This document shows, one piece after another, positions 1,181-18,622 of a stretch of DNA of 35,845 bases (the stretch's first letter is position 1; the number at the start of each line of letters is the position of its first letter). Source of the stretch: a virus; IMG/VR virus record IMGVR_UViG_3300047550_001945, positions 1 through 35,845 of that record, one strand, 5' to 3'. The position numbers and the translations under genes were made by a program. The notes under the pieces were generated by a model. It was not told where the DNA came from. It saw only the letters and a program-made list of their open reading frames with translations, and ran no database searches.

Positions 1181-1196
1181 TAAAAAGTCCTCAATT

Positions 1197-1204: not shown

Positions 1205-1209
1205 AGAAT

Positions 1210-1241: not shown

Positions 1242-1244
1242 AGA

Positions 1245-1317: not shown

Positions 1318-1324
1318 TTGAGGA

Positions 1325-3214
1325 TCAGACTATCTGGCAACCGCCAGCGCTGCAGGCATACTCCTTTGCTGCCTCAGTATTGTCTTCTGCTTCGTATTTA
1401 GACAGGTCCTTGAAGTTAACTTTAACCTTTGGGTGTGCCGAATAAGTAGCAGAATCAATTTGCTCAAATGGAGCCTGAGCATATGTATGACTATCACCAC
1501 CAGGAAGGAACGAAATTCCTGTTGCCACATCAAAGTTTTCCCACAGCCACTGACCAACTTCAAGGAACTCGGAGTCCCTGTAGTTAACGGTGATTGATGG
1601 CTTGTGGTGGCAATAGTGTTCCTGATATGTCTTCCACAGATCCAAGTGATCCAATGCACGGAGATCTTCCGTGGTGATTGTTCCCTTGGGGGCCTTCATC
1701 GCAAAGGTGAAGACCGCTGTGTTTCCTGGGTTGATAACATCATCTTCACAAGGAACGCCTTGATCCTTCATGAGATTGTAGATTGGATCCTTCTTGTCAA
1801 TGCGAATTCTGCGATAATAATAATCCGCATATCTTGGGTGTAGTCCTGATGCAGAATCCACCAAGCAAGAAGTTGTCCCCTCTGGCTTGACGCAAGTGAT
1901 TGACTTGCTTGGGTTGATACCAAGCTTCTCTGCCCACTTGAGATTTGTTGCTGTTGCGTGATCACGAAGGGTTTCAAGTAGACGGATCAACTTTGGCTTG
2001 CCTTCAAGACCACTAGTAAGTTTGTTGTCATAGATGCCAGTCATGCTGACACCCAGCAATCTTTCGTCTTCACAGTTCTTCTTCCACTCGGGACGAAGGT
2101 ATGGGAAGTTAGTAAAGGTGGATTGAACGGTTCCTATGATTGTGGCAATCTCAATCTTCTTCTTCAAAGTTGCTGCAGTATCATCGGGACGAACAACAAC
2201 AGTTGAAAGATTGCAGAACTCAAACGGCTTGAGAATAATCTCCGAGCATGGGTTTGTTCCATACTCACAGTTTTCATCTCGGCTCCATTTGGCTGCTTGC
2301 TCTTGCAAAGCTCTTCTGTTGATCATTCCACGCTCACCGCTGTGGCTGTTGTACAGTGATGTCCACTCTTCAAGGAACTGACCCATCGGTGGGCGACCAC
2401 GGTATACAGCAGAGTTGTTTGCGTATGAACGGAAACCAGCCTGCTCCCACCATGCACCACTCTTGCAGTGAGCCATCTCACGATCAGAGAGATCGCTGAG
2501 AGAAATCATGGCAGAACGACGAACACCACCAACAATAACTGCATTGGCAATGGCACAGCAAATGTCATGGCATTCAAGAGCAGTCAACTTGCGTCCTTGT
2601 GCATTGTAAAAAACCTTGACAAGGAATTTAAACAAATTGTCAAGTGGTGCTGGACCACTGGCACGACCACCAAATGTCTTGAGTCTTGCACCAGCAGGAC
2701 GAATCTTGCTCAAGTCCCACTTGATATGGCGACCTGCATACAGATGATCCATAAGGAACTTCACTGCATTGCCCCACCCTTCCTTTGAATCTTCAACGAC
2801 ATAAGTTACGTTGAAGTGTTTCTCAATCTTGTTTGCAACTGTTGGAAGTTTATCTGTGTACTGGCGTTCGACAGAGTAACCGACTCCAGTACCATTCATA
2901 AGAACAACAAACAACTCAGCAAATGATTCAAGAGAATCAATCGGCAAATAAGAGCAGTTGTACAAACAAGTATTGTCGTGGTCCAATGCTGGTCCAGCAG
3001 TCATCAAACTACGCATAGATGGAAGAACCTCAAGATTCAGAATTGCATCCTTTACATCAGGGCGTTCTGCAAGTTGAGGAACCTTGTTCGTAAAGTAATT
3101 CCACCAACGCTCTACGCACTCCTCCCAGCTTTCTCTGCGATTGTAGTCAGGAAGCCATCTGGAGTAGCGTGAGATAAAAATAAACGATTGAAACGGTGAT
3201 AAAATTTCTGCCAT
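1325..3214 (-). CDS. Adenosylcobalamin-dependent class II ribonucleotide reductase (RTPR-like)
   Basis: This enzyme reduces ribonucleotides to deoxyribonucleotides using vitamin B12 coenzyme. The sequence follows the monomeric Lactobacillus leichmannii RTPR: N-terminal RYSRWLPDYNRRESW (15-30), the active-site pair NCS (Cys87) and FCNLS (Cys334), the radical-site motif NPCSE (Asn321, Cys323, Glu325), SDIRP-like LSKIRPAGA and GVRRSA (230-235). The C-terminal tail has two cysteines (621 and 626), as expected for re-reduction by thioredoxin. At 629 residues it is about 110 shorter than the 739-residue L. leichmannii enzyme, partly from a missing insert after the GTGVGYSV segment. The start has AAAGGA about 11 nt upstream. 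It lies just downstream of thyX. Base composition looks richer in G+C than the primase gene nearby. The family is clear. Confidence 0.95.
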   Translation of the reverse strand: MAEILSPFQSFIFISRYSRWLPDYNRRESWEECVERWWNYFTNKVPQLAERPDVKDAILNLEVLPSMRSLMTAGPALDHDNTCLYNCSYLPIDSLESFAELFVVLMNGTGVGYSVERQYTDKLPTVANKIEKHFNVTYVVEDSKEGWGNAVKFLMDHLYAGRHIKWDLSKIRPAGARLKTFGGRASGPAPLDNLFKFLVKVFYNAQGRKLTALECHDICCAIANAVIVGGVRRSAMISLSDLSDREMAHCKSGAWWEQAGFRSYANNSAVYRGRPPMGQFLEEWTSLYNSHSGERGMINRRALQEQAAKWSRDENCEYGTNPCSEIILKPFEFCNLSTVVVRPDDTAATLKKKIEIATIIGTVQSTFTNFPYLRPEWKKNCEDERLLGVSMTGIYDNKLTSGLEGKPKLIRLLETLRDHATATNLKWAEKLGINPSKSITCVKPEGTTSCLVDSASGLHPRYADYYYRRIRIDKKDPIYNLMKDQGVPCEDDVINPGNTAVFTFAMKAPKGTITTEDLRALDHLDLWKTYQEHYCHHKPSITVNYRDSEFLEVGQWLWENFDVATGISFLPGGDSHTYAQAPFEQIDSATYSAHPKVKVNFKDLSKYEAEDNTEAAKEYACSAGGCQIV

Positions 3215-3240
3215 AATTTGACAATCCTTTGTTGGTGTCT

Positions 3241-3972
3241 TTATTTAGTTGTTAGAGTATTCCACGAAACTGGGAAAAGTGGAGCAATTATTTTGTCAAT
3301 TGCTTTAGCATATTGCTGTATTTCCCATTGAGCGTGGGCATCGATTCTCAGGTTATAAACACGGGCAAATGCGTAGAGAGAACCAGTCCACATAAATTCC
3401 GTATATGTTCCTTGCGGAAGAATTGATCTTGCCTGCTCGGGAGCAACACCATCTTGAATAAGTTTGCTATAAAGGTCAAGACATTCTTTTGCAATTGAGT
3501 CATACTCTTGACGAAGACGAATACAAAGATCCATATCTTCAATTGCACCACTGCTTCCTTGCTTTGCCCCATCTGTTGGTGCATTGCGCCAAAGCGGAGT
3601 GTAGATCTCTGGTTCAAAAGTAACATAACGTCTACTGACCTCATTCATTGTCAGACCAATTTGGTGTTTGCCCAGTTGGGCACGGACAAAAATTGGACAC
3701 TTAATCCGCAAAGTAATTTGCGGATGACAGAATGGAGTAAAGTGGTTATGCTTACCAAGATATTTAATCAGCTTTGCATCTTTTTCAGGAAGCTTTGGGC
3801 TAGGAACATGACTGTCTGCGTAATCCCATGAACTTTCCTTATTGAAGGATACACGGGCTGCATTGACAACACTTAGATCTGACCCCATGTAGTCAACCAG
3901 ATCAACATGCCCATAATCTAAAACATTAATTTTAATCTGCGCCGTGCTTCTGTTCAGGGTTTCCATCGTCAT
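3241..3972 (-). CDS. thyX: Flavin-dependent thymidylate synthase ThyX
   Basis: ThyX converts dUMP to dTMP using methylene-tetrahydrofolate, FAD and NADPH. The family pattern is clear: LDYGHVDLVDYMGSDLSVVNAARVS (18-42), a histidine-rich HNHFTPFCH (75-83), NEVSRRY (110-116) and a C-terminal LPQGTYTEFMWT...LRIDAHAQWEI segment. The classical RHR-x7-S signature is altered: the sequence is GKHQIGLTMNEVSRRY, so RHR is not kept although Asn, Glu, Ser, Arg and Tyr are. GAGGA lies 5 nt before the chosen ATG (3972). A second ATG two codons later is possible. The gene overlaps the preceding small gene by 41 nt and precedes RNR, forming a DNA-precursor unit. Confidence 0.94.
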   Translation of the reverse strand: MTMETLNRSTAQIKINVLDYGHVDLVDYMGSDLSVVNAARVSFNKESSWDYADSHVPSPKLPEKDAKLIKYLGKHNHFTPFCHPQITLRIKCPIFVRAQLGKHQIGLTMNEVSRRYVTFEPEIYTPLWRNAPTDGAKQGSSGAIEDMDLCIRLRQEYDSIAKECLDLYSKLIQDGVAPEQARSILPQGTYTEFMWTGSLYAFARVYNLRIDAHAQWEIQQYAKAIDKIIAPLFPVSWNTLTTK

Positions 3973-4165
3973 TTAAATCCTCATCATTATCTACAAGTTC
4001 AACACGAACCCCAGGAATCTGGGTAAAATCTGCTGCATATTCTCTAGCTCTTGCCCAAAGATCGGGATCCATTTCCTTTACATATTCACCAAATCTTTGT
4101 ACAAAAGTTAAGTATGCTTCACTAGCCTTTAAAATGTCTTCTTCCGACATATTTTCATCTTCCAT
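3932..4165 (-). CDS. Small acidic protein of unknown function
   Basis: This 77-residue acidic protein (MEDENMSEEDILKASEAYL...) has a predicted helical first half and a tail dominated by Asp, Glu and Asn. It starts 1 nt after the primase stop, with AAGG before the ATG, and its 3' end overlaps the start of thyX by 41 nt, so translation of the three is probably coupled. The overlap and the coherent composition favour a real gene over a chance frame. No domain recognised and no membrane segment. Confidence 0.6.
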   Translation of the reverse strand: MEDENMSEEDILKASEAYLTFVQRFGEYVKEMDPDLWARAREYAADFTQIPGVRVELVDNDEDLNDDGNPEQKHGAD

Positions 4166-4166
4166 T

Positions 4167-5180
4167 TTATACCTTCTTCCAGTAAGTATATTTCATTTTT
4201 GCTTTAAGTCCAGAATAAATGTTATTGATTATAATCTTGTGTGTCATTCCTTTTCCATAAGATAAAACCATATCATTTATATCTTTCTCAATTATTTCAG
4301 ACGGCCAGATTACTACGTTTCTTCCAGCCTCTATGTATTTTCCAATCAATCCGACTATTTCTGCATTTCTAGGTTCATTATCAAAAACAAATACAACATT
4401 TGACTTGTTTATTTTGGTAGGCAATTCACTTAGCCACCCAGCACCCTGCATAGCAACTGCATTATCCAAGAACATAGAATCAATCGGACCCTCAGTTACA
4501 AATACAGTTTCTCTGGGGTCTACTTTATCTAGGTTGTACCAGAGCCTTTCCGTTTCTTCTTTTTTGAGAGTAATGTAGCGAATCCCTTTAGCTTCTTTCC
4601 CACCTTTTTTATCGAATCCCGCTTCTTCAAGTATTCGTCCTTGCACGCCAATAAGTACGCCCATCTCGTCATAGAACGGTATGACGAGTCTGGCTTCCTT
4701 AGATCCAACTCTTTCAAAAGATTCCATGATCTTACTGAAATCGTTGCTGTAATAAAAATTACAATACTTTTCTTTAGGTATTTCTCTGGACTTAACATAT
4801 TTTACTGCCTTATGATCTTCGTTGAGTAGGTCAAGCCTGGTTCCAAGATCAGTGAAAGGTTTATGTCTTTCTTTTTTTGGTTCTTCAACAATTGGCTCTG
4901 GGTTTCTGTCCTTGAAAACTTCGAAGGAATATTCCTTGCAGAGTTGTGGGCTAATACTTTCAAGAGCAGAATATAGATTACAAGAAAAACCGCAGTTGTG
5001 ACATTTGTAAACATAATGGTTTTTGTGTTGAAAGAAGTATCCCCTGGTCTTATTCCTGTTCTTTTTGGAATCACCACACTTAAAACACCTACATGTGGCC
5101 AATGAATCTTTTTTCCACTTGAACTTTGCAAGGGAACCGGAAAGAAGATTCACATACTTCTTGTCAATATATATGCTCAT
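4167..5180 (-). CDS. DNA primase, T4 gp61-like (zinc finger plus TOPRIM)
   Basis: The protein makes RNA primers for lagging-strand synthesis with the helicase encoded just upstream. A four-cysteine zinc ribbon is visible: Cys32-x2-Cys35 (RCFKCGDS) and Cys60-x2-Cys63 (KCHNCG). A TOPRIM fold follows, with VFVTEGPIDSMF (226-237, Glu230 the expected catalytic acid), VVFVFDNEP (262-270) and KDINDM (299-304). Length 337 is close to T4 gp61 (342). The ATG overlaps the helicase stop by one base (TGATG) and has GAGGA 6 nt upstream, so translation is coupled. Family assignment is firm from the combination of motifs and neighbour. Confidence 0.92.
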   Translation of the reverse strand: MSIYIDKKYVNLLSGSLAKFKWKKDSLATCRCFKCGDSKKNRNKTRGYFFQHKNHYVYKCHNCGFSCNLYSALESISPQLCKEYSFEVFKDRNPEPIVEEPKKERHKPFTDLGTRLDLLNEDHKAVKYVKSREIPKEKYCNFYYSNDFSKIMESFERVGSKEARLVIPFYDEMGVLIGVQGRILEEAGFDKKGGKEAKGIRYITLKKEETERLWYNLDKVDPRETVFVTEGPIDSMFLDNAVAMQGAGWLSELPTKINKSNVVFVFDNEPRNAEIVGLIGKYIEAGRNVVIWPSEIIEKDINDMVLSYGKGMTHKIIINNIYSGLKAKMKYTYWKKV

Positions 5181-6592
5181 CAGGCTTCCTCAAATGTCCA
5201 GTTCACAACTTTGTTCTTCTTCTTTCCAAATTTTGGATTAAATGTTTGTGAATCCGAACCCGAACCAAAGCCTTCTTCTTCTGTGTTATTTGCATTAGTA
5301 AGGTTGTTGTTGGTATTGTCAACATCATAAAATTTCATCTTAGACTTATTGACACCAACCAAAAACTTCCTGTTCTTTGTCAAATCATTTCCACGATTCT
5401 TTAGTTGCTTGACCATTAGCTGACCAGCTTCTGCAAGTTCTTCATTTTCAATCAATGCAACAAAGAAGTCTGCTGTCTGTGGAAGACCAAAGCTTTCAGA
5501 TGTATCGGTCATCTCCATGTCACTACTCTTTGCGCCTTCACGGTTGACCTGGGTTGCTGTCCATACGGGGACATTGAACTGCTTGGCAAGTCCTCGCAAT
5601 TCTTCAGCAATACCTTTAACATAAGTATAGCTATTCATTCCATTGCCCATCTTGAATCTAGCACATGAGCAAATATTCAAATAATCTACAAAAATTACAT
5701 CTGGAATAAACTTCTTCTTAATCTTTAACTCTTCCATCAGATTACGAAAGTGTGTAACATTTGCTGCTGCGGTGGGGTATTCTTTTATGATAAGCTTTCC
5801 TCTGCAGGTTTTCTTTAAATTGTCAACTTTATTTTCATATTGCTGCAACGGCATCTGCTCTAGAACATGCATGTCGGTATCAAGAAGATTTGCATCAATT
5901 CTTTTTGCAATCTCTTCCTCTGCCATCTCAAGAGTAATGTAAAGTACATTCAAGTTTTGAGACATGCATGCTGCTGCATGATGGCAAAGAAAAGCACTCT
6001 TACCGACACCAGATGCTGCCATGACAACATTGAGAGTCTTTTTACGGGTTCCGCCACGGGTAATCTTATTAAACATCTCTAGATCAAAAGGAACCTTTTC
6101 CTCTACTCTATGGTAATATTCATATCGCTCGTCAACATCTTCAAGGAAATCGTGACCTACGCGAGTATCGAAAGACACAGACAACGCCTTGGACATAATC
6201 TCGGGAATTGCATTCTGCGTCTGCTCTTTGTCTTTTCCTTCAATAATACCAATAGAAGCCATGATACCATTGTAGATTGCTTTTTCTTTACAGAATTTTT
6301 CTGTATTCTCTACAAGCCATATTGTGTCTGACTTCTCACCTTCCTTGTACATTTCCTCGCTGATGGAAACACACTTTTTGAATTCAACCTCTCCCAACGA
6401 CTTTTCATTTTCCAATGAAATGAGAATAGCATCCTTTGTCGGGATGTTATTGTACTTCAAGATAAACTTCGATACTATTCCAAATACTGCCCTTTCGGAT
6501 TTATCGTGGAAGTATTCTTCTTGAAGGAAGGGAACAACTTTTCTTGCGTACTCTTCATTGAGTACCAAGTTCTTTAAGATTACTGTTTCCAT
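5180..6592 (-). CDS. Replicative DNA helicase, DnaB/T4 gp41-like
   Basis: This is a RecA-fold hexameric 5'-3' helicase. The N-terminal helical domain (1-160) is followed by the motor: Walker A AASGVGKS (192-199), a catalytic Glu in ITLEM (Glu222), Walker B DVIFVDY (298-304) and a Q/R segment TATQVNREG. The C-terminal 55 residues are poly-Asn/Glu then lysine-rich, probably a flexible tail for contact with primase or the single-strand binding protein. The length of 470 is normal. No Shine-Dalgarno site is seen next to the ATG. Instead a TATAAT box lies exactly 6 nt before it, with a -35-like TGGACT 16 nt further up, suggesting a leaderless mRNA. The primase gene follows with a one-base overlap. 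Confidence 0.95.
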   Translation of the reverse strand: METVILKNLVLNEEYARKVVPFLQEEYFHDKSERAVFGIVSKFILKYNNIPTKDAILISLENEKSLGEVEFKKCVSISEEMYKEGEKSDTIWLVENTEKFCKEKAIYNGIMASIGIIEGKDKEQTQNAIPEIMSKALSVSFDTRVGHDFLEDVDERYEYYHRVEEKVPFDLEMFNKITRGGTRKKTLNVVMAASGVGKSAFLCHHAAACMSQNLNVLYITLEMAEEEIAKRIDANLLDTDMHVLEQMPLQQYENKVDNLKKTCRGKLIIKEYPTAAANVTHFRNLMEELKIKKKFIPDVIFVDYLNICSCARFKMGNGMNSYTYVKGIAEELRGLAKQFNVPVWTATQVNREGAKSSDMEMTDTSESFGLPQTADFFVALIENEELAEAGQLMVKQLKNRGNDLTKNRKFLVGVNKSKMKFYDVDNTNNNLTNANNTEEEGFGSGSDSQTFNPKFGKKKNKVVNWTFEEA

Positions 6593-6598
6593 GTTTTT

Positions 6599-6626
6599 AT
6601 TATATGATGGTTACCTTAAAAGTCCA
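6599..6626 (-). promoter_or_regulatory. Promoter of the helicase gene, predicted to give a leaderless mRNA
   Basis: On the minus strand: TGGACT (6621-6626), 16-nt spacer, TATAAT (6599-6604), 6 nt, ATG (6592). It occupies the short gap between the two genes. The -35 matches TTGACA at 4 of 6 positions and the -10 is perfect. A start about 7 nt after the -10 would fall on the A of ATG. Confidence 0.65.
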
Positions 6627-6629
6627 GCA

Positions 6630-6944
6630 TTAGTCCTGATGAACATCATCCTCAAGATCTACAGATTCTTTCTTTTCTTCTTCGATATTTTTCTCAACAA
6701 TATCAGTAAAGATTTGACCAACCACTTGAGTAAACTCTGCTGTTTCTTGGTTAAAGTTTTCTGGAGCTTGTAATGTAGTAACATTCATATTTACCGCAAG
6801 TTCTCCAGATTCAGTTTCATGTAATGAAATTTTACCGTATTTAAATACGATGCCAGAAAAATCACCATTTAAGATTTCAATTGGGCATGTATCTTTTTGA
6901 TCAAAAAGATCATCTCTAAATTTATAATCAGGAACCTTGTCCAT
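6630..6944 (-). CDS. Unknown small acidic protein between uvsX and the helicase
   Basis: The 104-residue protein starts inside the last codons of uvsX (17-nt overlap) with AAAGGA 8 nt before the ATG, so it is translated with uvsX. It begins MDKVPDYKFRDDLFDQKD, has a beta-like middle (IEILNGDFSGIVFKYGKISLHE) and a strongly acidic C-terminus (EKNIEEEKKESVDLEDD). No known motif is visible. Its position between recombinase and helicase suggests a replication accessory role, but that is only context. Confidence 0.75.
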   Translation of the reverse strand: MDKVPDYKFRDDLFDQKDTCPIEILNGDFSGIVFKYGKISLHETESGELAVNMNVTTLQAPENFNQETAEFTQVVGQIFTDIVEKNIEEEKKESVDLEDDVHQD

Positions 6945-7950
6945 ATTTAAAATCCTTTTGAACTTCTGCGTCGATTTTATTTAGAATATCCAAAGTAAAG
7001 TATTTCTCTGGATCATCATCAATGTTTTTCTCAAAAACTTTAGAACCATCTGGCAACTCTACGCGAGTGGAAACCTTCTTGAAGATATTATACTTTAAAG
7101 CAAGATCCGTCAAACCATAATATCTGCTCAGACCAGATGTATAGTTTAGACGAGTTTCAACTTGCATGTTTTCTTTAACAAAACGATTTTTATAGTTTGT
7201 GCATTTGATAAAATTTCCAACTACTCCGTCTTCTGTTTTATCCTTGCTCTTTGAAAGAGTAAGGATGTTACTGGCTGCATACTTGAGTCCAATGCCACCA
7301 CCAAGTTCCTTTGTTGGAACATATGCACCAATAACTTGGTAAGTATGATTGGTGAGAAGCATGGGAATCTTGGCCTTGCCAAGCTTCAAAGTAAGAACAC
7401 GGAATGTTGCTTTGGTCTGCTGAGCCTTTGTCATGTCACGAACATCTTTACCTTCAGCGGAGTCAGTCATCTCCTTGCGGGTAGACAACATCCCAAGGGA
7501 GTCAAGAACCATAAAAACTGGCTTTCGGTCTTCTTCGGGCTGCTCAAGAATGTCATTAACAATCTTCAGTGCCTGTGTCTTGAACTCTTCGATTGTTGCA
7601 ACGGGAATGACTGCTACACGCTCAGGATCAACTCCCCGTGCAGTAAACATATCAGATGTTACTGCTTGCTCGGTATCAAAATAAATCACAACACCGTCTT
7701 TGTGATCCTTTAGAAACTGGCCTGCGATGCCAATGGCATAGAAGGTCTTTCCCGTTGCTGGATCTCCTGCCAAGCAGGAGATCTTGTTGTTTGGTAATCC
7801 CCCAAAGATAGATCCAGACAATAGTGCATTCAATGCATACGAACCCGTGTCAATGAAGCCAGATACATCTGCACCATCAATGCCTTCAGAAACTAGGGTT
7901 GCGTCTGGATTATCAATTTTGCTTATTAAGTTTTTTAGATACTTTGACAT
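6928..7950 (-). CDS. uvsX: UvsX, RecA-like recombinase
   Basis: UvsX forms the presynaptic filament for strand exchange in T4-type recombination-dependent replication. The RecA core is evident: Walker A GDPATGKT (62-69), catalytic Glu in YFDTEQ (Glu94), Walker B VFMVLDS (Asp150), the NHTYQVIG segment, and ELGGGIGLKYAAS resembling the DNA-binding L2 region. Length 340 is typical (T4 UvsX is 391). The first 38 nt overlap the end of the gene upstream. A perfect sigma70-like promoter lies 24-51 nt before the ATG, and the leader is A-rich with only a weak AGAAAG. It heads a unit with the 104-residue gene. Confidence 0.95.
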   Translation of the reverse strand: MSKYLKNLISKIDNPDATLVSEGIDGADVSGFIDTGSYALNALLSGSIFGGLPNNKISCLAGDPATGKTFYAIGIAGQFLKDHKDGVVIYFDTEQAVTSDMFTARGVDPERVAVIPVATIEEFKTQALKIVNDILEQPEEDRKPVFMVLDSLGMLSTRKEMTDSAEGKDVRDMTKAQQTKATFRVLTLKLGKAKIPMLLTNHTYQVIGAYVPTKELGGGIGLKYAASNILTLSKSKDKTEDGVVGNFIKCTNYKNRFVKENMQVETRLNYTSGLSRYYGLTDLALKYNIFKKVSTRVELPDGSKVFEKNIDDDPEKYFTLDILNKIDAEVQKDFKYGQGS

Positions 7951-8215
7951 TATTTTTTTTCTTTCTGGTCGTAATTATAACAGCTGCGTAGTCACTGTCA
8001 ACTACGCTGTCGTCAATTTTAAGAGAATCGATTATTACCTCATCATCAACGTCAAGAAGTCTATCACCAACCATAAGGCATGGACCACCTTCAAAATCAA
8101 AAAGACCGTCGCCATGGCGAGTATACAAACTCCGACCTTCGATTTTGTAAGATCCGTCTTTAAGTAATGTGAGAATTCGTTCATCACCATATCTAGATTT
8201 AAACCTCTTTACCAT
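7913..8215 (-). CDS. Unknown 100-residue protein upstream of uvsX
   Basis: The protein starts MVKRFKSRYGDERILTLLKDGSYKI, has a Gly/Asp-rich beta-like middle (HGDGLFDFEGGPCLMVGD), an acidic stretch and a basic tail (TRKKKNNVKVSKKLNKQN). The ATG has AGGA about 10 nt upstream, inside the last codons of the previous gene, and the end overlaps uvsX by 38 nt. The uvsX promoter lies inside its coding sequence. I do not recognise a family. The charged tail could bind nucleic acid, which is speculation. Confidence 0.75.
   Translation of the reverse strand: MVKRFKSRYGDERILTLLKDGSYKIEGRSLYTRHGDGLFDFEGGPCLMVGDRLLDVDDEVIIDSLKIDDSVVDSDYAAVIITTRKKKNNVKVSKKLNKQN
7974..8001 (-). promoter_or_regulatory. Strong sigma70-type promoter of uvsX
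   Basis: On the minus strand: TTGACA (7996-8001), 16-nt spacer, TATAAT (7974-7979). Both hexamers match the consensus perfectly. The expected start is near 7967, giving a leader of about 17 nt before the uvsX ATG (7950). It is inside the upstream coding sequence. Confidence 0.8.
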
Positions 8216-8218
8216 TTC

Positions 8219-8836
8219 TTAACATTCCTGGTTTATACCGTTGAGCATTTTTATTTCTTCTTTGAGATCTTTTATCTCAATTTTAAGGTCTTCAATTATA
8301 TTTTGAAGAGCAGAAATTTGTTTTTCTTGATCAATTTCTCTGAGAGTTTTTTCACGAGAATTAAATTTATTCAACCATTCAACATCTTGGTCGTTCAATA
8401 TCAATGGATTTGTTTTCTGTGATTTTTTATATGGAACTTTTGTTGTATAATGATTATATGGTGTGGAGGGCGCATTTTGGTTGTAAGCTGTAGTTCCTGT
8501 TTTTGCAGCATCGGTCCAATAATTCATAGTTCCCATAACATCAATTATTTTTTTTAGAAAAACGTCTTCCTGAAAAGAATTTCCATTAAACACCACACCC
8601 AAGTCTTCCAACAATTCTTTAGTAACAGTAACCGTTGGAAGATTTATTGCACTGTTGCTCACAGTATCAATAACCTCTGCGCGTATATGGAACAGTTTAC
8701 TAACTAAATCTTGTCTGAGAATTATATGTTGAAATTCATAAGATTCAGAATCTATGTTCTGGAGCTTATTTCCAGGTGAACCCTTCACCCATTCAAAATC
8801 AATATAACCTCTGTCGTAAGCAGTTTTTACTAGCAT
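8219..8836 (-). CDS. Unknown protein with C-terminal coiled coil
   Basis: I chose the ATG at 8836 (205 residues) over a GTG at 8854 that would overlap the polymerase stop by 4 nt, because a TATAAT box lies exactly 6 nt before the ATG, as in the helicase and dUTPase genes, and because the GTG has no Shine-Dalgarno site. A GAGGT 11 nt before the ATG is a possible alternative signal. The N-terminal two thirds are of mixed composition. Residues about 160-200 (EKQISALQNIIEDLKIEIKDLKEEI) form a convincing coiled coil, suggesting an oligomer or partner-binding tail. It is placed between polymerase and uvsX. No family recognised. Confidence 0.75.
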   Translation of the reverse strand: MLVKTAYDRGYIDFEWVKGSPGNKLQNIDSESYEFQHIILRQDLVSKLFHIRAEVIDTVSNSAINLPTVTVTKELLEDLGVVFNGNSFQEDVFLKKIIDVMGTMNYWTDAAKTGTTAYNQNAPSTPYNHYTTKVPYKKSQKTNPLILNDQDVEWLNKFNSREKTLREIDQEKQISALQNIIEDLKIEIKDLKEEIKMLNGINQEC

Positions 8837-8842
8837 GTGTTT

Positions 8843-8870
8843 ATTATACCTCACACAAAAAAGGATTCAA
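8843..8870 (-). promoter_or_regulatory. Promoter predicted to give a leaderless mRNA for the 205-residue gene
   Basis: On the minus strand: TTGAAT (8865-8870), 16-nt spacer, TATAAT (8843-8848), 6 nt, ATG (8836). It spans the polymerase stop codon. The -35 has 4 of 6 consensus bases and the -10 is perfect. It sets the start of the downstream gene. Confidence 0.7.
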
Positions 8871-11352
8871 GAGTTAATTTATCAGTTATAGACCAACCGA
8901 TTGCCTGCAATACATTATCTAGAGGTTCATCAAATGTTTTCTCAAATTGTTTTTTCCTGTCTATGTATTTTTCAAGATTAAAACTTTCAGGTGGCTTACC
9001 AATAAAACCAATAACAGCATCTTTTCCACCCATTCCGTATGGATTTGGAACTTTTAAAAAGACAAATTTCATTTTGTCATTTTCTTTAATTGGTGGGATG
9101 TCTTTAGACAGATTTAGTTTTTCGATATGGGCATTATGCAACAGTGCAGCCTTTGTTGCAATCGGAGTTCCTGTTTTATAAATTTTAGCATTATCCTTGT
9201 ACTTAGCAATACCCTTGACACCCCGGGGAGATGCGATATCTTCTATAGGCAATTTCATAAATTCATCATAGAATTCATTCACATATTCTCGCAACTCCTC
9301 CGGGGTTTTGGTCAGGATAATCTTGATACAATCTTTTAGCTTGTTTCTCACAACAGTAGGTGTACTGCTTCTTGCCGTCTCAAGACCCATGATCTTGAGT
9401 TTGGGATCAGCAAACCGAACACCTTCAAGGTCTTGAACTAACAGTGCATATCTTTTCTTTGCAACAAAGATTCCAGCAGAAGCAATGGCCTCGCGCTTAA
9501 ACACGATCTTATTTTCTTTGCAATTCAACCCAGCAGAAAGCAGATCCATCTCTTTCTTGAATTCTGGTTGTATTTTTGTTTCGCATACCTGACCAATAAA
9601 TGCCGTGACATCATCGATCTTTGTTTTACTGGATATCTTTTGAACAATAGCATCTAGATTCAAGTAAACCGAGTCAGTATCAACAGCAATGACATAATCT
9701 TTAGTGTCCTTTGTAAGACTTTGAATATAGTCATTCATTGCCTTTTCTGCTTTGCGAATGATTACTTGTCCTGTGACCGTGACTGCAGTGGCCAACTCAG
9801 GAGATGAATAAACAAAAGCGGGATTGCCAAGACAACCGTAAAGACTGTTGGCAAGAATCTTTTTAACAGATTGTTTAATCTTGAGGGCCGCAATTCTGGG
9901 TAGCAACTCTTTGTTCTTTGTGCTTTCATATTCCTTTTCCAATTCAATCATCCGTGACTTTGCTTCTTTTCTTTGATTGAAAGTACGCTCAATCAAGATT
10001 GGAATGAAGCCTTGAAAACTTTGAGTAAACATAGAACCATTACATGCAAGGCAGGAATTTATAGATGCTGCCTCTTTAACCATATCGGGTATATCATTCC
10101 TTTTGCTTGAAATAAAATCATCAGCATTCAATGACGCATCTTTTTTGGTGCAAGTATCTGGGGAGATGTTCCATTGCATGATAATAGATGGATACAGACT
10201 GGTTGCATCGAAGCTTACTACATTCTTGTAGAAACCAGGTGTAACATCTTTTACATAAGCACCGACAAACTGTTCATCTTTTGCATAACTGTGTTTTAGT
10301 GGTGGAACTACTTGCTTTTGTGCAAGATAATCACAGCAGATGGTTTCCCAAATGCGGGTAGCAAAAAATACCGTATCATAAGTTATCTTTGCTTCATAGG
10401 CAATAGATACGGCCAAATCAATTAGTTTTAGTTTACCGTCAAGTCGCTCAACCAGCACAGCGTCTTGGACGTTATATTCTGCAAACTTTTGAAAGTTCTT
10501 CTTGTAAAACTCACGGAGTGAGCCATACTCGCTATAATCCAATTTTTGAGCATCTAGTTCCACCTTTGCTATGTTCTGCAGAGCATAGCTTTCCTGACTA
10601 GTACCCGAAAACTTTTTGTACAAATCCATGTAATCTAAAATAGTGTATCCGGGAAACTCATAAATTTTATGGTTTCTTCCACCAATATCTGTTTCCCGAC
10701 ACTTCATCAAATTAAAAGGCAACCAACTTTGTATTTCCTTCTCATCAAAGTAAAGCAAAGCCCTGCCAATTATATAGGGAATATCGAATAGCTTTACATT
10801 CCATCCAGTTATGATGTCTACATCTTCTTTTGCAAGTATCTCAAAGGTTTTCTTTAGAAGTTCCTTTTCGTTTCCAACCATATAAACTTTGCAGTCTGGC
10901 AAAGTAATTGGAGTAAATGTAATAACATGAGTAACACCAGAAATTCTGATGCTCATCAAGTTTACTCTTTCATTTGGTCGTTCAAGGTCCGGGAAACCGT
11001 CCTCGGACTCACACTCCAAGTCCAAATAAGCTATCTTGATTTTGGAAAGATCGTATTCCACCTCAGTCGGATAAGTCTCCATGAGGTATTGAGTAATGAA
11101 ATCAGTGTTGCCATAAATTGGGCAATCCTCTAGTTCTCTATACTGATCCAGGAATTCTCTGCAGTCATACAGAGTATCAAAAGTCATTTTTTTGACTTTA
11201 AACCCCTTGAGGGTTTTATACTTGCTATCTTTGTCTGTGCGGATAAAGAGAGAAGGTTTAAACGAAACTGACTCCGTAAACCTCTCTCCATTTTTGTATC
11301 CACGAACAAGTACTTTATTGCCCTTTAGGGCACATGCCGTATAGAATTTCAT
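8851..11352 (-). CDS. Family B DNA polymerase, T4 gp43-like, with 3'-5' exonuclease
   Basis: This is the replicative polymerase. Proofreading motifs: ExoI DLECES (Asp111, Glu113), ExoII NVKLFD (Asn185, Asp190), ExoIII YNVQD (Tyr293, Asp297). Polymerase motifs: A DATSLYPSI (382-390), B KKILANSLYG (497-506), C VDTDS (Asp558, Asp560). The thumb-region KYKDNAKIY and KTGTPIATKAALLHN follow. All catalytic acids are present, and 833 residues is slightly shorter than T4 gp43 (898). The C-terminus ends LTLESFFV, which resembles the hydrophobic sliding-clamp binding tail of gp43 (inference). The ATG overlaps the stop of the preceding gene by 4 nt (ATGA), so translation is coupled. Confidence 0.96.
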   Translation of the reverse strand: MKFYTACALKGNKVLVRGYKNGERFTESVSFKPSLFIRTDKDSKYKTLKGFKVKKMTFDTLYDCREFLDQYRELEDCPIYGNTDFITQYLMETYPTEVEYDLSKIKIAYLDLECESEDGFPDLERPNERVNLMSIRISGVTHVITFTPITLPDCKVYMVGNEKELLKKTFEILAKEDVDIITGWNVKLFDIPYIIGRALLYFDEKEIQSWLPFNLMKCRETDIGGRNHKIYEFPGYTILDYMDLYKKFSGTSQESYALQNIAKVELDAQKLDYSEYGSLREFYKKNFQKFAEYNVQDAVLVERLDGKLKLIDLAVSIAYEAKITYDTVFFATRIWETICCDYLAQKQVVPPLKHSYAKDEQFVGAYVKDVTPGFYKNVVSFDATSLYPSIIMQWNISPDTCTKKDASLNADDFISSKRNDIPDMVKEAASINSCLACNGSMFTQSFQGFIPILIERTFNQRKEAKSRMIELEKEYESTKNKELLPRIAALKIKQSVKKILANSLYGCLGNPAFVYSSPELATAVTVTGQVIIRKAEKAMNDYIQSLTKDTKDYVIAVDTDSVYLNLDAIVQKISSKTKIDDVTAFIGQVCETKIQPEFKKEMDLLSAGLNCKENKIVFKREAIASAGIFVAKKRYALLVQDLEGVRFADPKLKIMGLETARSSTPTVVRNKLKDCIKIILTKTPEELREYVNEFYDEFMKLPIEDIASPRGVKGIAKYKDNAKIYKTGTPIATKAALLHNAHIEKLNLSKDIPPIKENDKMKFVFLKVPNPYGMGGKDAVIGFIGKPPESFNLEKYIDRKKQFEKTFDEPLDNVLQAIGWSITDKLTLESFFV

Positions 11353-11675
11353 CCAATATTCTTTTGCTCTTTGTCCTTCAGCAATCCAGCAAGCAGAACG
11401 CTATAGTTAATCATATCTATGATAGCATCATAGACGCTTTCATTAGTAATAGACAGATCGCCTTTATTGAGGAAAGTAGAAATTCTAGACATTTTATCTG
11501 TCATTCGAATTAATACCCCAAGTTCAGCCGTGGCAAAGCCAAGATATTCAGCCCTGCGAAAGTTCATAAAAGGATCTGCCCCAGAAGCATAGTCGTTATT
11601 CTTCTTTTTCATAAGTTCTAAGGCTTCTTTGCAGATATCGTCGTGTAATTTAAATAGTTCTTCTCGTGTAGTCAT
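11349..11675 (-). CDS. Nmad1/DUF1599 family protein (putative nucleotide-related role)
   Basis: This 108-residue protein carries the recognisable DUF1599 (nucleotide modification associated domain 1) pattern: KKKNNDYASGADPFMNFRR (residues 22-40), then GVLIRMTDKMSRISTF, NESVYDAIIDMINYSVLL. The family is common in phages, its biochemistry is not established, and its all-helical form resembles MazG-like nucleotide hydrolases. I use the ATG at 11675, not a TTG at 11711, because a TTGACG-N16-TATATT promoter ends 8 nt before this ATG and its -35 would lie at the TTG itself. No Shine-Dalgarno site is visible. It is the first gene of the replication unit and overlaps the polymerase by 4 nt. Confidence 0.85.
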   Translation of the reverse strand: MTTREELFKLHDDICKEALELMKKKNNDYASGADPFMNFRRAEYLGFATAELGVLIRMTDKMSRISTFLNKGDLSITNESVYDAIIDMINYSVLLAGLLKDKEQKNIG

Positions 11676-11683
11676 GGTAGACC

Positions 11684-11711
11684 AATATACACCATTTATA
11701 GGACCCGTCAA
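11684..11711 (-). promoter_or_regulatory. Promoter of the nmad1-polymerase unit, almost leaderless
   Basis: On the minus strand: TTGACG (11706-11711), 16-nt spacer, TATATT (11684-11689), 8 nt, ATG (11675). The -35 matches 5 of 6 bases and the -10 matches 5 of 6. A start 7 nt below the -10 would leave about a 2-nt leader. It faces away from the plus-strand block. Confidence 0.7.
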
Positions 11712-11726
11712 GTCTAAATATTAGAC
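11712..11726. promoter_or_regulatory. Perfect inverted repeat GTCTAA-ATA-TTAGAC, candidate operator
   Basis: A 6-bp perfect inverted repeat with a 3-nt centre lies in the 69-nt divergent gap, immediately upstream of the -35 of the nmad1-polymerase promoter and 18 nt before the start of the plus-strand gene. The position between two divergent units suits a regulator site. It could also be chance or a small hairpin. Confidence 0.4.
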
Positions 11727-11744
11727 ACGGAGAATTTTTAAAAT

Positions 11745-12350
11745 ATGTTGGCAGTCATCCCAGATTTTTCTAAACTAATTGAGGTAATTTCCATAGCAGT
11801 TTTTGGAATTCTGGGAGTTGGGTGGGGATTGGTAAAATTTATTCAATCTAGATCCAAATCTGATAATTTTATTGCAATACATACAGAAATCCATGAATTA
11901 TTAACAGAACTCAGAGTTAATAGTAAGGCAATGCGTGTTAGTGTCTTGCAATTTCATAATGGTGAATATTTTATGGATGGAATTTCCATGAGAAAGTTTT
12001 CAATAACACATGAATCTTCTCATAAAGGCTACATTTCACAATCATTAAAATTTAAAAATGTTTTATGTTCTCTTTTTATTCCTTTATTGAATAAAATATT
12101 AGAAAATAAAGGAATTGTTCACCACGTCGATGCTATGTCGTCGTCCTATGCTAAACATTTCTTTGAAGATGAAAATATTTCTCACTATGCCTGTCTTCCA
12201 ATAAGAAATAAAAATATAAACATTGGATTTATTTTATTACAATGGCATTTTGATTTCCCACCGGATATGGAGAATCAACAGTCCATGGTTGATTACTTTG
12301 AAAGCATCCGTGATTCGGTAGAAATACAACTTTCATATCAAAAGAACTGA
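11745..12350 (+). CDS. Membrane-anchored GAF-like protein of unknown function, first gene of lysis-type block
   Basis: The 201-residue protein has one N-terminal membrane segment (about 11-33, LIEVISIAVFGILGVGWGLVK) followed by positive residues, so the rest is probably cytoplasmic. The soluble part begins RVSVLQFHNGEYF (64-76) and later has ACLPIRNKNINIGFILLQW, a pattern I know from conserved phage hypothetical proteins with a GAF-like fold. GGAG lies about 12 nt before the ATG. The holin gene starts 7 nt after its stop. It may sense a state of the cell and affect lysis timing, but no direct evidence shows this. Confidence 0.7.
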   Translation: MLAVIPDFSKLIEVISIAVFGILGVGWGLVKFIQSRSKSDNFIAIHTEIHELLTELRVNSKAMRVSVLQFHNGEYFMDGISMRKFSITHESSHKGYISQSLKFKNVLCSLFIPLLNKILENKGIVHHVDAMSSSYAKHFFEDENISHYACLPIRNKNINIGFILLQWHFDFPPDMENQQSMVDYFESIRDSVEIQLSYQKN

Positions 12351-12357
12351 GGTAAAC

Positions 12358-12792
12358 ATGAGCATAGAACTTTTATCTTTGATTGGTGGTGGATTTACTG
12401 GATTTCTTTTTAAATATTGGGCTCAAAGAGCACAAGACCAAAAAGAAATATTTGAACGCCTAATTAAAGCAAACCAACAAACAACAGATAATCAAGATAA
12501 AGCAGCCCAAAGAGTTCCACTTGATGTTGGCAAAAATGTAAGAAGACTAATTGTTCTTACTTGCTTGTTTGCAGTAGTTGCTGCTCCCTTTGTACTTCCG
12601 TTTTTTGGAATTCCGACATTTGCCGAGTTTGATCAAAAACAACCTGAAAGTATTTTTGGAATGATTCCAGAAACAACTAGAAGATATTTTGTAGAAATTC
12701 CAGGTTATTTCTTGGCACAAGAAAATAGACAAGTTTTGTTGGCTGTTGTTGGATTTTATTTTGGTACATCTGTATCTGGAGATAAATCATGA
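12358..12792 (+). CDS. Holin, three-transmembrane type (GTA_holin_3TM-like)
   Basis: Holins form pores in the inner membrane at the end of infection. The 144-residue protein shows the GTA-type layout: an amphipathic first membrane segment with GGGFTGFLFKYWAQ (10-23), a charged Gln-rich stretch, a second segment LIVLTCLFAVVAAPFVLPFF (64-83), and a C-terminal segment with the family-like VVGFYFGTS (130-138). GAGGT lies 5 nt before the ATG. It overlaps the next gene by 4 nt (ATGA). No endolysin gene is seen in this window, so lysis must also use a gene elsewhere. Confidence 0.8.
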   Translation: MSIELLSLIGGGFTGFLFKYWAQRAQDQKEIFERLIKANQQTTDNQDKAAQRVPLDVGKNVRRLIVLTCLFAVVAAPFVLPFFGIPTFAEFDQKQPESIFGMIPETTRRYFVEIPGYFLAQENRQVLLAVVGFYFGTSVSGDKS

Positions 12793-13031
12793 AATACTTA
12801 ATTACTTTGTTTTTATTTTTATCTTCTTGCACAAGTCCAGAATTTGTCTATATGAAAGATAAAACTGGAAATCCAATACATACAACAACACCAAATCCAT
12901 TTTTTAGCTCACCAAACCAAGCTTCTGAGTGGAGTTTTTGGTATGTAATAATACTAGCAATCGTAGCTTGGGCTGTTTGGAAAGAGTTTAAATCTGTAAA
13001 ATGGCCAAAATCTAAAAAAGAAGATAAATAA
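12789..13031 (+). CDS. Small lipoprotein with C-terminal membrane segment, candidate u-spanin
   Basis: The 80-residue protein has a signal peptide with lipobox LSSC (Cys14 would be lipidated), a Pro/Ser/Thr-rich stretch of about 34 residues, a membrane segment FWYVIILAIVAWAVW (50-64) and a basic cytoplasmic tail (KEFKSVKWPKSKKEDK). Outer-membrane lipid anchor plus inner-membrane span is the layout of a unimolecular spanin such as T1 gp11, which fuses the two membranes. It is directly after a holin gene with a 4-nt overlap and has GGAG 7 nt upstream. The periplasmic part is short for a spanin, so a simple membrane lipoprotein is the alternative. Confidence 0.6.
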   Translation: MKYLITLFLFLSSCTSPEFVYMKDKTGNPIHTTTPNPFFSSPNQASEWSFWYVIILAIVAWAVWKEFKSVKWPKSKKEDK

Positions 13032-13035
13032 AAAC

Positions 13036-13503
13036 ATGGAAAAGTTACAGCTTTCATTATCTTTATCATCCAAAGTTTCTGGATTACCAGATGAATTACC
13101 AACAAGCATAAATCCAACTTCTGGTTGGGGCAATCTTGAATCTGGACTAGTTGATACTAGTTTTACATATTGGGCATCTTCTACAGGCGCACAAACAGCA
13201 GCATCTAATGGTCAAGATGTAATTATAACTTGTTCTTCACCTATTTCTGTAACTATAACAGTATCTTCAACGTCTGGAACACCTCTATCGGGTTTAAAAT
13301 ATATAAAAACAACTGGAGGAGTTGCAAGTAATATTATAAACTATACTGGTGCAATTAGTATTTCTAGCGGAGATAGTTTAAAAATTGCAGCAACAACGCC
13401 TTCATTTGGACCAACTGATGGAACTGGAAATATTGTGGTTACAGATACAACAAGTAGCCAAATATTAGATTTAATTCCATATAGTTTTGTAATTGAAATT
13501 TAA
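13036..13503 (+). CDS. Unknown beta-rich protein, last gene of the plus-strand block
   Basis: The 155-residue protein is rich in Ser, Thr, Gly and Ile with alternating beta-like stretches (ITCSSPISVTITVSSTSGTPL, ISISSGDSLKIAATT) and no signal peptide or membrane segment, resembling a small virion, Ig-like or fibre-associated domain. It starts 4 nt after the previous stop. There is no good Shine-Dalgarno site; GATAAATAAAAAC precedes the ATG. Its TAA stop directly abuts the stop of the convergent dUTPase gene. I cannot name a function. Confidence 0.7.
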   Translation: MEKLQLSLSLSSKVSGLPDELPTSINPTSGWGNLESGLVDTSFTYWASSTGAQTAASNGQDVIITCSSPISVTITVSSTSGTPLSGLKYIKTTGGVASNIINYTGAISISSGDSLKIAATTPSFGPTDGTGNIVVTDTTSSQILDLIPYSFVIEI

Positions 13504-14022
13504 TTACTTTCCAGTGCTTCCAAATCCACCAATTCTATCTGATTTTTGATTGGGCTGTTTAAAAATTTCTTGGAAGTAGCACTGTTCGTACTCAACCACT
13601 TCAGCCTGAGCCACCCTGTCCCTGTCGTAAATTTTGATGGCATCGGTGGTATTGGTGTTAAGGATGATAATTTTGGTCTCCAAGGTATAGTCTTCATCGA
13701 CAATACCTTCGCAATTAGCCAGCGTTAAACCGTATTTAAGCGCCATTCCCGACCGAGGGTGCAGACGGAGGGAATACTGCTCGGGCACGTTAAAAGTCAA
13801 TCCAGTACGAATTAAAGCCCTTTCTCCGGGCATTAGAGCAATAAAGTTCTTTTCGTTTGCGGAATCATATTCTGGAAAAACTTCCGTAAAATTTTTGCCT
13901 TGATAAACTTTAATTTTTTCATTGCTTGGGATATATGCGCCCAAGTCAAAGCATGCTGCCATACGAGTTTGAAAATTTGGATCTACGACATCCGGTGAGT
14001 GTTTAAAGTATTGGAGGATCAT
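13504..14022 (-). CDS. dUTP diphosphatase (dUTPase)
   Basis: Trimeric dUTPase hydrolyses dUTP to dUMP, keeping uracil out of DNA and supplying ThyX. All five family motifs are visible: I AACFDLGAY (22-30), II HPRSGMALK (88-96), III ANCEGIVDEDY (102-112), IV DRVAQ (135-139), V RIGGFGSTG (163-171). An insert at about 38-60 makes it 172 residues, slightly longer than usual. The ATG has no convincing Shine-Dalgarno site, while TATAAT lies exactly 6 nt before it and TTGATT 16 nt further up, predicting a leaderless mRNA. Expression is thus separate from the structural genes upstream. Its stop abuts that of the plus-strand gene. Confidence 0.95.
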   Translation of the reverse strand: MILQYFKHSPDVVDPNFQTRMAACFDLGAYIPSNEKIKVYQGKNFTEVFPEYDSANEKNFIALMPGERALIRTGLTFNVPEQYSLRLHPRSGMALKYGLTLANCEGIVDEDYTLETKIIILNTNTTDAIKIYDRDRVAQAEVVEYEQCYFQEIFKQPNQKSDRIGGFGSTGK

Positions 14023-14028
14023 GAGTAC

Positions 14029-14056
14029 ATTATACTACAAAAAATGTTAAAATCAA
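14029..14056 (-). promoter_or_regulatory. Promoter of the dUTPase gene, predicted to give a leaderless mRNA
   Basis: On the minus strand: TTGATT (14051-14056), 16-nt spacer, TATAAT (14029-14034), 6 nt, ATG (14022). The -35 has 4 of 6 consensus bases. It fills the short gap before dUTPase and its -35 overlaps the stop codon of the upstream gene. Confidence 0.7.
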
Positions 14057-14370
14057 ATATCAACTGATCCAATAAATTCTTCAACATTTGCCTTTATCCA
14101 ATCATATCCAACTTTGACTGGATTGTTTGAATTGGTGTTTTTGCCATCGGTTCCACACAACACAGTCCATGTTGCTGGATCTTCAACTATATAAACTTTT
14201 CTTGATGCTGGTTGATAATTTTCTTCTCTTATCTGTTCATTTAGATAACCATCTAGTATCAAAGTTATTTTTACGCTTTCAGAATATGAATAATCGATTT
14301 TAACTGATCTAATTTTCCAGTATTCTGTGGTTACACCCGATGCGGATTGTATTGATTTTTTTAGTGCCAT
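14053..14370 (-). CDS. Unknown small phage protein, probably structural
   Basis: The 105-residue protein starts MALKKSIQSASGVTTEYWKI, followed by alternating strands (VKIDYSYSESVKITLILDGYLN) and a C-terminal YDWIKANVEEFIG. The start resembles small conserved phage proteins encoded among tail genes, but I cannot name the family. A GGAT about 8 nt before the ATG is a weak ribosome site. It is separated from the LRR gene by a hairpin terminator and from dUTPase by a promoter, so it may be its own unit. Confidence 0.75.
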   Translation of the reverse strand: MALKKSIQSASGVTTEYWKIRSVKIDYSYSESVKITLILDGYLNEQIREENYQPASRKVYIVEDPATWTVLCGTDGKNTNSNNPVKVGYDWIKANVEEFIGSVDI

Positions 14371-14422
14371 AATTTATCCAAAATATTTTTTATATAAATA
14401 TATATGACATTTAAAATTATTT

Positions 14423-14458
14423 GAAAAGGGCTCCCTGCAGGAGTCTTTTTCTTTTTTT
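14423..14458. terminator. Hairpin terminator between the LRR gene and the small gene
   Basis: GGCTCC-ctgca-GGAGTC forms a 6-bp GC-rich stem. On the minus strand, flanking A and T runs extend it to 10 of 12 pairs and it is followed by CTTTTC, so it can end the LRR/fibre transcript. On the plus strand it is followed by a long T run and would be the stronger terminator. Confidence 0.6.
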
Positions 14459-14459
14459 A

Positions 14460-15620
14460 TTAACATGTGGGACCAAATAAATATCCTTTAGCAGTTGCCG
14501 TGGTAATATTAGATGCTGCAAATCCAGTAATTCCTTGCGCGTCAATAGTTACTGGGCCGTATCCAGGATCAGAAGTAATATTTCTAAGATCTGTATACAT
14601 TGTATTCAGTGCAGATGTAGATAGACTGCATCCACTAATATTTAAAAAATTTCTAGCACCTATAGTTTTGTTTCCTATAATAAAACTTTCAGGAGTTCCT
14701 TTCACGCTTCCTTGCAGTCTAACTGAAGAAACTTTGTTTGTTATATAATTACCACAATAATTGTGTAGTCCTATTGTCAGTTTGGTCAAATTGGGTAAAG
14801 TGTTTCCAGAAAAAGAAGTCAATGATTGTGGGTTTACTTCTACTGGATTGTTTGTTTGTGTTGCGAGTGCTATTTGCCTTAAAGTTTGAATATTATCAAC
14901 GGTAATACCTGTCAGTAAAGAGTCTTTTATGAATAATTCATATAATTGTGATCCAGAAGGAAAAGAAATTCCAGTAAATCCACAACTTGATGCTCCCAGT
15001 CTTTTTAAGTTTGCACCTATTGTTAGGGATTTTAAAGCAAAATTATGATTACAAAAAAATTGTTCTAGATTAGACAATCCAGAAACATCAATTGATGCAA
15101 AACAATTTCCAGAACATGCTATTGTTGAAATATTTTTGCAGGCATTTATATCCCCCAGACTAGTAAGTTTATTTCTATCACACTTTAAAACTTTTAATTG
15201 TTGGCATGTGGATGTGTCAATTTCTCTTGTACACATATTAAATTGATTTTGATTGGCACCAAAATTAGTTTGTTGTTTTTTTCTTTTATCACATGCAAAA
15301 AATGTTATATTGCCTTTTAAATTTCCAGATGCATCACAAGGTTCTACTATTACTTTTTTTAAATTATTATCAGTTGGTACTTTGTAAGCATTTCCTCTGA
15401 TTGCTGTTCCATCTATTTTTTGAAGACCAAATCCAGTACAGTCTACTACTTGTGTAGACCCATCCCACCAAGTAACTTTAAACAAACTTGTTGATGTTGC
15501 AACACCAACTCCAAAAGGTAAAGTGAGACCAGTAGTATTTGGATTTAAAATATTTGAAGGTAAATCTGTATATAATACTATTCTTTCTTGGGGTTTAACT
15601 CCAACAGTTGGTCTCATCAT
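14460..15620 (-). CDS. Leucine-rich-repeat protein, probable virion adhesin
   Basis: I start at the ATG at 15620 (386 residues): it overlaps the upstream stop by 4 nt (ATGATGA) and has AGGAG about 10 nt upstream, while the TTG at 15647 has no site. After an N-terminal beta-rich part (1-125), five repeats of about 21 residues follow (142-241), e.g. LKVLKCDRNKLTSL, LEQFFCNHNFALKSLTI and LKRLGASSCGFTGISF. The L-x2-L-x-C-x2-N type with cysteines resembles bacterial surface LRRs. The tail NTMYTDLRNITSD...TIDAQG resembles an LRR cap. Its place after a fibre gene suggests receptor binding or attachment to the virion (inference). Confidence 0.8.
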   Translation of the reverse strand: MMRPTVGVKPQERIVLYTDLPSNILNPNTTGLTLPFGVGVATSTSLFKVTWWDGSTQVVDCTGFGLQKIDGTAIRGNAYKVPTDNNLKKVIVEPCDASGNLKGNITFFACDKRKKQQTNFGANQNQFNMCTREIDTSTCQQLKVLKCDRNKLTSLGDINACKNISTIACSGNCFASIDVSGLSNLEQFFCNHNFALKSLTIGANLKRLGASSCGFTGISFPSGSQLYELFIKDSLLTGITVDNIQTLRQIALATQTNNPVEVNPQSLTSFSGNTLPNLTKLTIGLHNYCGNYITNKVSSVRLQGSVKGTPESFIIGNKTIGARNFLNISGCSLSTSALNTMYTDLRNITSDPGYGPVTIDAQGITGFAASNITTATAKGYLFGPTC

Positions 15621-18616: not shown

Positions 18617-18622
18617 AAATTA

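Follow-up and report, generated by a model that had tools for sequence, protein, structure and literature searches.

The virus record IMGVR_UViG_3300047550_001945 (35,845 bases, analysed as a whole and referred to here as the window) raises the question why four of its genes carry a promoter -10 box only 6 to 8 nucleotides (nt) before the ATG, and whether their mRNAs begin at the start codon itself. The T4-type replication genes of the window, namely helicase, uvsX, polymerase, and primase (PHROG and Pfam matches), mark it as T4-like and related to the Kyanoviridae. Its closest named phages are Synechococcus, Pelagibacter, and Methylophilales myophages, with identities of about 42% for the polymerase and 51-55% for the helicase (best 25 matches listed). 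Leaderless mRNAs from start-codon-docked promoters in this phage group are very probably the best explanation, because two promoter geometries both point to the A of the ATG as the first transcribed base and are joined by ATG-only starts and a characteristic base at position -1. The features concerned are listed below; the gap is the number of nt between -10 box and ATG.

6621..6626, minus strand: helicase -35 box TGGACT; 32 of 35 distinct upstream regions have such a promoter at gap 6
6599..6604, minus strand: helicase -10 box TATAAT, 6 nt before the ATG
5180..6592, minus strand: DnaB-like replicative helicase gene, predicted leaderless; ATG at 6592; phrog_19 (E 6e-117), Pfam DnaB_C
8865..8870, minus strand: -35 box TTGAAT of the 205-residue gene, within the last DNA polymerase codons
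8843..8848, minus strand: -10 box TATAAT of the 205-residue gene, directly past the polymerase stop codon and separated from the ATG by 6 nt
8219..8836, minus strand: 205-residue gene, function unassigned, predicted leaderless; ATG at 8836; without Pfam or PHROG match
11706..11711, minus strand: nmad1 -35 box TTGACG
11684..11689, minus strand: nmad1 -10 box TATATT, 8 nt before the ATG
11349..11675, minus strand: nmad1 gene (nucleotide-modification-associated domain 1), predicted short-leader or leaderless; ATG at 11675
14051..14056, minus strand: dUTPase -35 box TTGATT
14029..14034, minus strand: dUTPase -10 box TATAAT, 6 nt before the ATG
13504..14022, minus strand: dUTPase gene, predicted leaderless; ATG at 14022; phrog_135 (E 1e-37), Pfam dUTPase

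A preliminary description of the window had reported these four layouts, each with a 16-nt spacer, at gaps of 6, 6, 8, and 6 nt, and all elements were found as described. The nmad1 domain was assigned by Pfam DUF1599 (E 6e-5, slightly short of the curated cut-off) and phrog_1485. In all four genes the ATG is preceded by C. Promoter-like sites as such are not more frequent than expected by chance (58 in window positions 1-20000 versus 58.3 in shuffled sequences), hence the case rests on their position relative to the ATG and on conservation. Three loose sites of the window lie 6 nt from the ATG of an open reading frame (ORF), compared with a mean of 0.18 per other gap (Poisson P ~0.0008).

Conservation was followed in the best 80 of 594 helicase-bearing loci, with helicase identities of 89-100%. 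Usable were 79 of 80 loci for the helicase, 33 of 33 for the dUTPase, 48 of 53 for nmad1, and 7 of 9 for the 205-residue gene; starts of partial matches were restored by shifting back along the alignment to the start codon. Near-identical upstream regions were removed from the counts, and L002, a twin of the window with a 100% identical helicase and the same upstream sequences, was counted once. A site was regarded as conserved if at least 5 of 6 bases of the -10 box and at least 4 of 6 bases of the -35 box matched. Such a pair stood at gap 6 in 26 of 27 distinct upstream regions of the dUTPase and in 5 of 5 of the 205-residue gene, besides the 32 of 35 given above for the helicase. Outside these counts were three helicase regions (L058, L074, L075), which still look box-like by eye, and one dUTPase region (L028), which does not. 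The dUTPase is in our view the most telling case, because spacers and neighbours differ between the relatives. Close relatives that exchange the box for a Shine-Dalgarno (SD) site had been named as the observation that would speak against leaderless expression; instead, the relatives keep box and gap.

The nmad1 gene behaves differently. Among 28 distinct relatives the gap was 8 nt in 19, 7 nt in 4, 6 nt in 2, and 9 nt in one (25 of 28 at gaps 6-8), and in two further relatives the box lay at gap 0 or 2 of the chosen ATG. A constant gap of 8 nt was thereby ruled out; a count of 13 out of 13 had come from matches starting at residue 1 alone. Because of this variation between 6 and 9 nt, nmad1 more likely has a short leader than none. 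With this correction, the proposal of one expression class with leaderless translation was supported by the sequence evidence. No such site at gap 6 or 8 was detected upstream of uvsX (27 regions), the polymerase (19), rnr (16), the primase (18), or a 104-residue gene (17). The uvsX promoter had been described with consensus boxes, a 16-nt spacer, and a leader of about 17 nt, and is present in this form:

7974..8001, minus strand: uvsX consensus promoter TTGACA-N16-TATAAT, 23 nt upstream of the ATG at 7950; outside the class

As a class member uvsX was rejected, since this promoter occurs in only 1 of the 27 distinct upstream regions, namely that of the twin L002.

Genome-wide counts were derived from the window and ten long relative contigs. 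These had been fetched as helicase carriers, a choice that makes helicase and dUTPase recur; most other families are independent of it. Allowing one mismatch in the -10 box, two in the -35 box, and a spacer of 16 or 17 nt, the scan gave 1290 sites. Behind these, 122 ORFs of at least 40 residues started with ATG at gap 6, compared with 0-17 at each other gap between 0 and 39, and two scrambled motifs gave no gap-6 peak. The other start codons did not form a peak (GTG 3, TTG 12, CTG 0 at gap 6), hence starts are ATG only. After collapsing by blastp, gap 6 held 56 protein families, chance background included, versus 0-13 at other gaps between 0 and 49. In each of the 11 sequences gap 6 had the highest count, by a margin of only one in G003, G010, and the window. 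Of 336 strict sites, 88 had their first ORF-ATG at gap 6 (5 of 328 in the named phages). The six named phages used for comparison (T4, S-PM2, S-WAM2, DSL-LC02, Melnitz, and HTVC008M; 140,000-180,000 bases each) lacked the early peak, with gap-6 counts of 3 in three of them and of 2, 1, and 0 in the others, against means of 0.63-1.69, and a pattern search of their whole records gave no excess over a reversed control. Of the 80 loci, 70 do not belong to the ten contigs; they contained 101 early sites at gap 6 after exact duplicates were dropped, followed by 35 at gap 39. In the same check only 6 families fell at gap 6, a number that some other gaps equalled, since all these loci lie around the replication region. 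In the more distant contig G011 (146 kb, helicase 55%) there were 25 cases at early gap 6, a count biased by the choice of this contig via the N17 gap-6 pattern, and 8 at late gap 5.

The base at position -1 of the 122 class members was C in 89, T in 24, A in 8, and G in one (pyrimidine in 113 of 122), compared with C in 139, T in 269, A in 244, and G in 87 of 739 other genes (pyrimidine in 408). A pyrimidine before A is the usual context of bacterial transcription starts. ATG-only starts together with a pyrimidine at -1 are what leaderless initiation predicts.

A second geometry involves boxes resembling those of T4 late promoters. Behind the motif TAAATA, 74 ORF-ATGs from 35 families stood at gap 5, the next highest gap having 26 cases. 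These starts were again ATG only, and the base at -1 was T in 49, C in 18, and G in 7 cases (pyrimidine in 67 of 74). Two control motifs also peaked, though less strongly, with 29 cases at gap 5 and 33 at gap 3; we take this to reflect overlap with the real classes. In the 70 loci outside the ten contigs 22 late sites were at gap 5 and 37 at gap 10, the number of families being highest at gap 5 (10). Upstream of other genes, TATAAATA was found 44 times versus 2.7 expected from its genome-wide density. A gp55 homologue was present in 3 of 5 relatives searched (G001-G003), all of these contigs being possibly incomplete. The window holds a possible member of the late class, whose box overlaps the stop codon of the upstream gene:

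13025..13030, plus strand: TAAATA, T4-late-like, 5 nt before the ATG at 13036 of a 155-residue gene

The early geometry also extends beyond replication. G001, G002, G004, and G005 carry runs of small genes, each preceded by TTGACA-N17-TACAAT-like-N6-ATG, in islands at about 80-96, 24-40, 44-60, and 0-16 kb, respectively. The GC content of these islands is about 0.45-0.59 within contigs of 0.38-0.45. Two members of the block match PHROGs named peptidase and porphyrin biosynthesis and presumably resemble phage CobT and CobS. The class had been described as one of replication genes; these are included, as are the small-gene block and the second, T4-late-like promoter class. Codons 2-10 of the N17 genes have a C+A content of 0.75 versus 0.52 in codons 21-29, compared with 0.56 versus 0.51 in other genes. 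According to a passage in PMC9031893, CA repeats close to the start enhance leaderless translation.

We propose that at the early promoters (TTGACA-like, 16-17 nt, TATAAT-like, 6 nt, ATG) sigma70-type docking would let the host RNA polymerase begin transcription on the A of the ATG, the seventh base past the -10 box, leaving no leader; for the nmad1 mRNA a leader of about 0-3 nt is predicted. The TAAATA boxes would be docked likewise, 5 nt before the ATG, and could be read by the gp55 homologue. In the part of PMC2988020 that numbers the T4 late box, its first two bases are -13/-12; by our reading the 8-base box then ends at -6 and would leave 5 nt before +1. Ribosomes would start at the 5'-terminal AUG without an SD helix, presumably as intact 70S particles. 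The term 'early' is taken from the promoter type, and the timing it implies is equally provisional.

Several observations weigh against leaderless initiation. The nmad1 gap spreads from 6 to 9 nt, the main late peak is accompanied by shoulders at gaps 3, 6-8, and 10, and TAAATA may contain the stop codon of the upstream gene. Among the strict early sites, 78 of 336 had no ORF-ATG within 300 nt, and none of the four in the window was at gap 6, because the -35 boxes of its class members have two mismatches. The N16 class (0.59 versus 0.52) and the late class (0.58 versus 0.55) are only weakly enriched in C+A. In G012 (helicase 53%, picked by a gap-9 control pattern) 8 cases at gap 6 stood beside 7 each at gaps 9 and 24. 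Behind several of these ATGs come AAAGG-like letters and then another ATG, which gives this contig a leadered look. Over positions -20 to -4, class members pair with the anti-SD sequence at a mean energy of -3.71, compared with -3.68 for other genes and -2.75 for random places; values of -5 or lower occur in 30%, 37%, and 20%, respectively.

Among the alternatives, mRNAs with very short leaders, transcribed from 1-5 nt before the ATG and translated from a near-terminal AUG, would accommodate the variable nmad1 gap in the relatives and the minor peaks of the late class at gaps 6-8 and 10. Transcription from the ATG itself is what the sharp single gap of 6 nt and the pyrimidine directly before the A suggest, and we regard short leaders as unlikely for the class as a whole.

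The pairing energies bear on another alternative, in which longer read-through transcripts would be mainly translated, the docked promoter being minor or regulatory and SD-like stretches upstream of the -10 box serving these transcripts. Several of the genes do lie closely behind co-oriented genes, and pairing over -20 to -4 is no weaker than in other genes. SD-like runs of at least 4 nt were found in 15 of 25 window genes, including the 205-residue gene, where GAGGT is kept 11 nt upstream. The preliminary statement that the four genes have no good SD site apart from this distant GAGGT was only partly borne out: runs never exceed 3 nt at helicase, nmad1, and dUTPase, and pairing is weak for helicase (-1.2) and dUTPase (+0.6), but the energies of nmad1 (-5.4) and the 205-residue gene (-7.0) fall in the range of SD genes. 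In the class as a whole, AGGAGG runs of at least 4 nt (about -17 to -5) are at the random level (5% in the class, 5% at random places, 26% in other genes); the shares for at least 3 nt are 29%, 22%, and 49%. The pairing energy of the class may be caused by G at -14 (79 of 122) and -13 (61 of 122), directly upstream of the -10 box and outside a leaderless mRNA. Over -12 to -4, energies of -5 or lower occur in 0 of 122 class members, 7.8% of random places, and 20.2% of other genes, the -10 box itself excluding such pairing. Read-through does not account for a distance of exactly 6 nt from promoter to ATG across 56 families, and we consider it quite improbable. That AT-rich intergenic DNA yields TATAAT-like boxes near the ATG by chance would agree with the site number at the shuffled mean, but is practically dismissed by the exact-gap peak, its absence from scrambled controls and from the six named phages in the early class, and the conservation.

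A further-reaching and rather doubtful idea is that leaderless initiation became the default of this lineage, at early sigma70 promoters as well as at late ones of the gp55 type, with a separate 70S route and, in one early block, first codons rich in C+A as a partner signal. Such a route would avoid competition with SD-led host mRNAs and may persist when SD-led initiation shuts down.

The slot behind the polymerase shows how one promoter position is occupied in different relatives. A -10-like box at or right after the polymerase stop codon was present in 65 of 69 loci holding the polymerase end; conservation of the -35 box is confounded here by coding, since it lies in polymerase codons. The next ORF-ATG followed at gap 6 in 40 loci, 11 in 10, 8 in 5, 19-20 in 5, 5 in 2, and 0 and 9 in one each; one locus was without ORF. 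By their N-terminal part, at 50% coverage, the genes form five groups, of which three are large and have most of their members at gap 6. The gap-6 genes, including the 205-residue gene, differ in their N-terminal parts and have a common C-terminal stretch; the view that unrelated genes follow this promoter was dropped, because this stretch links them. Where a 100-residue gene comes directly after the polymerase, the gap is 8-9 or 19-20, and AGGA-like sites accompany the longer distance.

Other features of the window are a tRNA-Asn gene (1245-1317, minus strand), a gene for a B12-dependent class II ribonucleotide reductase (1325-3214), and a 3362-residue ORF (24027-34115) with SD-like runs of never more than 3 nt before its ATG. 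The reductase is closest to enzymes of Rhizobium, Lentibacter, Sinorhizobium, and Streptomyces phages (53-54%, among 8 matches listed). Permuted tmRNA genes were predicted by ARAGORN in 4 of 5 contigs, and 3 of 3 searched with Rfam were confirmed (L137:1335-1613, L141:11942-12195, L118:7660-7938; L146:7343-7742 by ARAGORN only). A tRNA-Tyr gene is located near the permuted tmRNA, and the tags are ANIKAAPMRMAA or ANQLAMAA. Two-piece tmRNAs are assigned in a passage of PMC9004378 to lineages of Alpha- and Betaproteobacteria and Cyanobacteria, which hints at a host from one of these groups. WhiB, psbA-family, CpeT, and Chloroa_b-bind had no match in G001-G005, all possibly incomplete contigs, and no helicase relative was found among genome contigs. 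RegB had no match in the 5 contigs, but control genomes gave none either.

Leaderless genes are already known; their use by a T4-like phage at two promoter classes looks like a novel variation on them. In the open-access papers searched, as far as titles, abstract beginnings, and passages show, there is no description of leaderless promoter classes in T4-like phages. Passages of PMC3160421 and PMC12340547 treat bacterial TA-led genes, in which leaderless mRNAs were deduced from a TA-like box that precedes the start by about 10 bp, and report specific ORF spacing requirements for the Deinococcus motif. Those genes belong to bacterial genomes, mostly Actinobacteria and Deinococcus-Thermus, in contrast to the phage, the -35 boxes, and the exact 6-nt gap described here. 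Phage transcripts are often leaderless according to a passage of PMC5312081, and lambda cI is named as a leaderless mRNA in PMC9031893. Kasugamycin reportedly leaves leaderless transcripts unaffected (PMC5230787).

Phage leaderless mRNAs are best known from single cases. The lambda cI mRNA, a phage mRNA starting at its AUG, represents one gene, whereas 56 families, chance background included, stand at gap 6 here. If the interpretation is correct, a virus can transfer a large share of its gene expression to a different route of initiation, and start-site calling in such genomes would change. With T4 late promoters and gp55, treated in part in PMC2988020, the phage group has in common a TATAAATA-like box and, in 3 of 5 relatives, the gp55 homologue. 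In T4 and three cyanophages, however, ATGs become more frequent at about 20-28 nt behind the box, in contrast to the peak at 5 nt in this group; T4, S-PM2, S-WAM2, DSL-LC02, and Melnitz had 0-3 cases at gap 5 and no late peak. The Pelagibacter phage HTVC008M shares the late gap-5 peak, with 11 ATG-ORFs at gap 5 behind TAAATA and 0-3 at other gaps (140,000 of 147,284 bases), and differs in lacking the early gap-6 peak (3 versus a mean of 1.35). As a cultured phage, HTVC008M offers a place to examine the late class.

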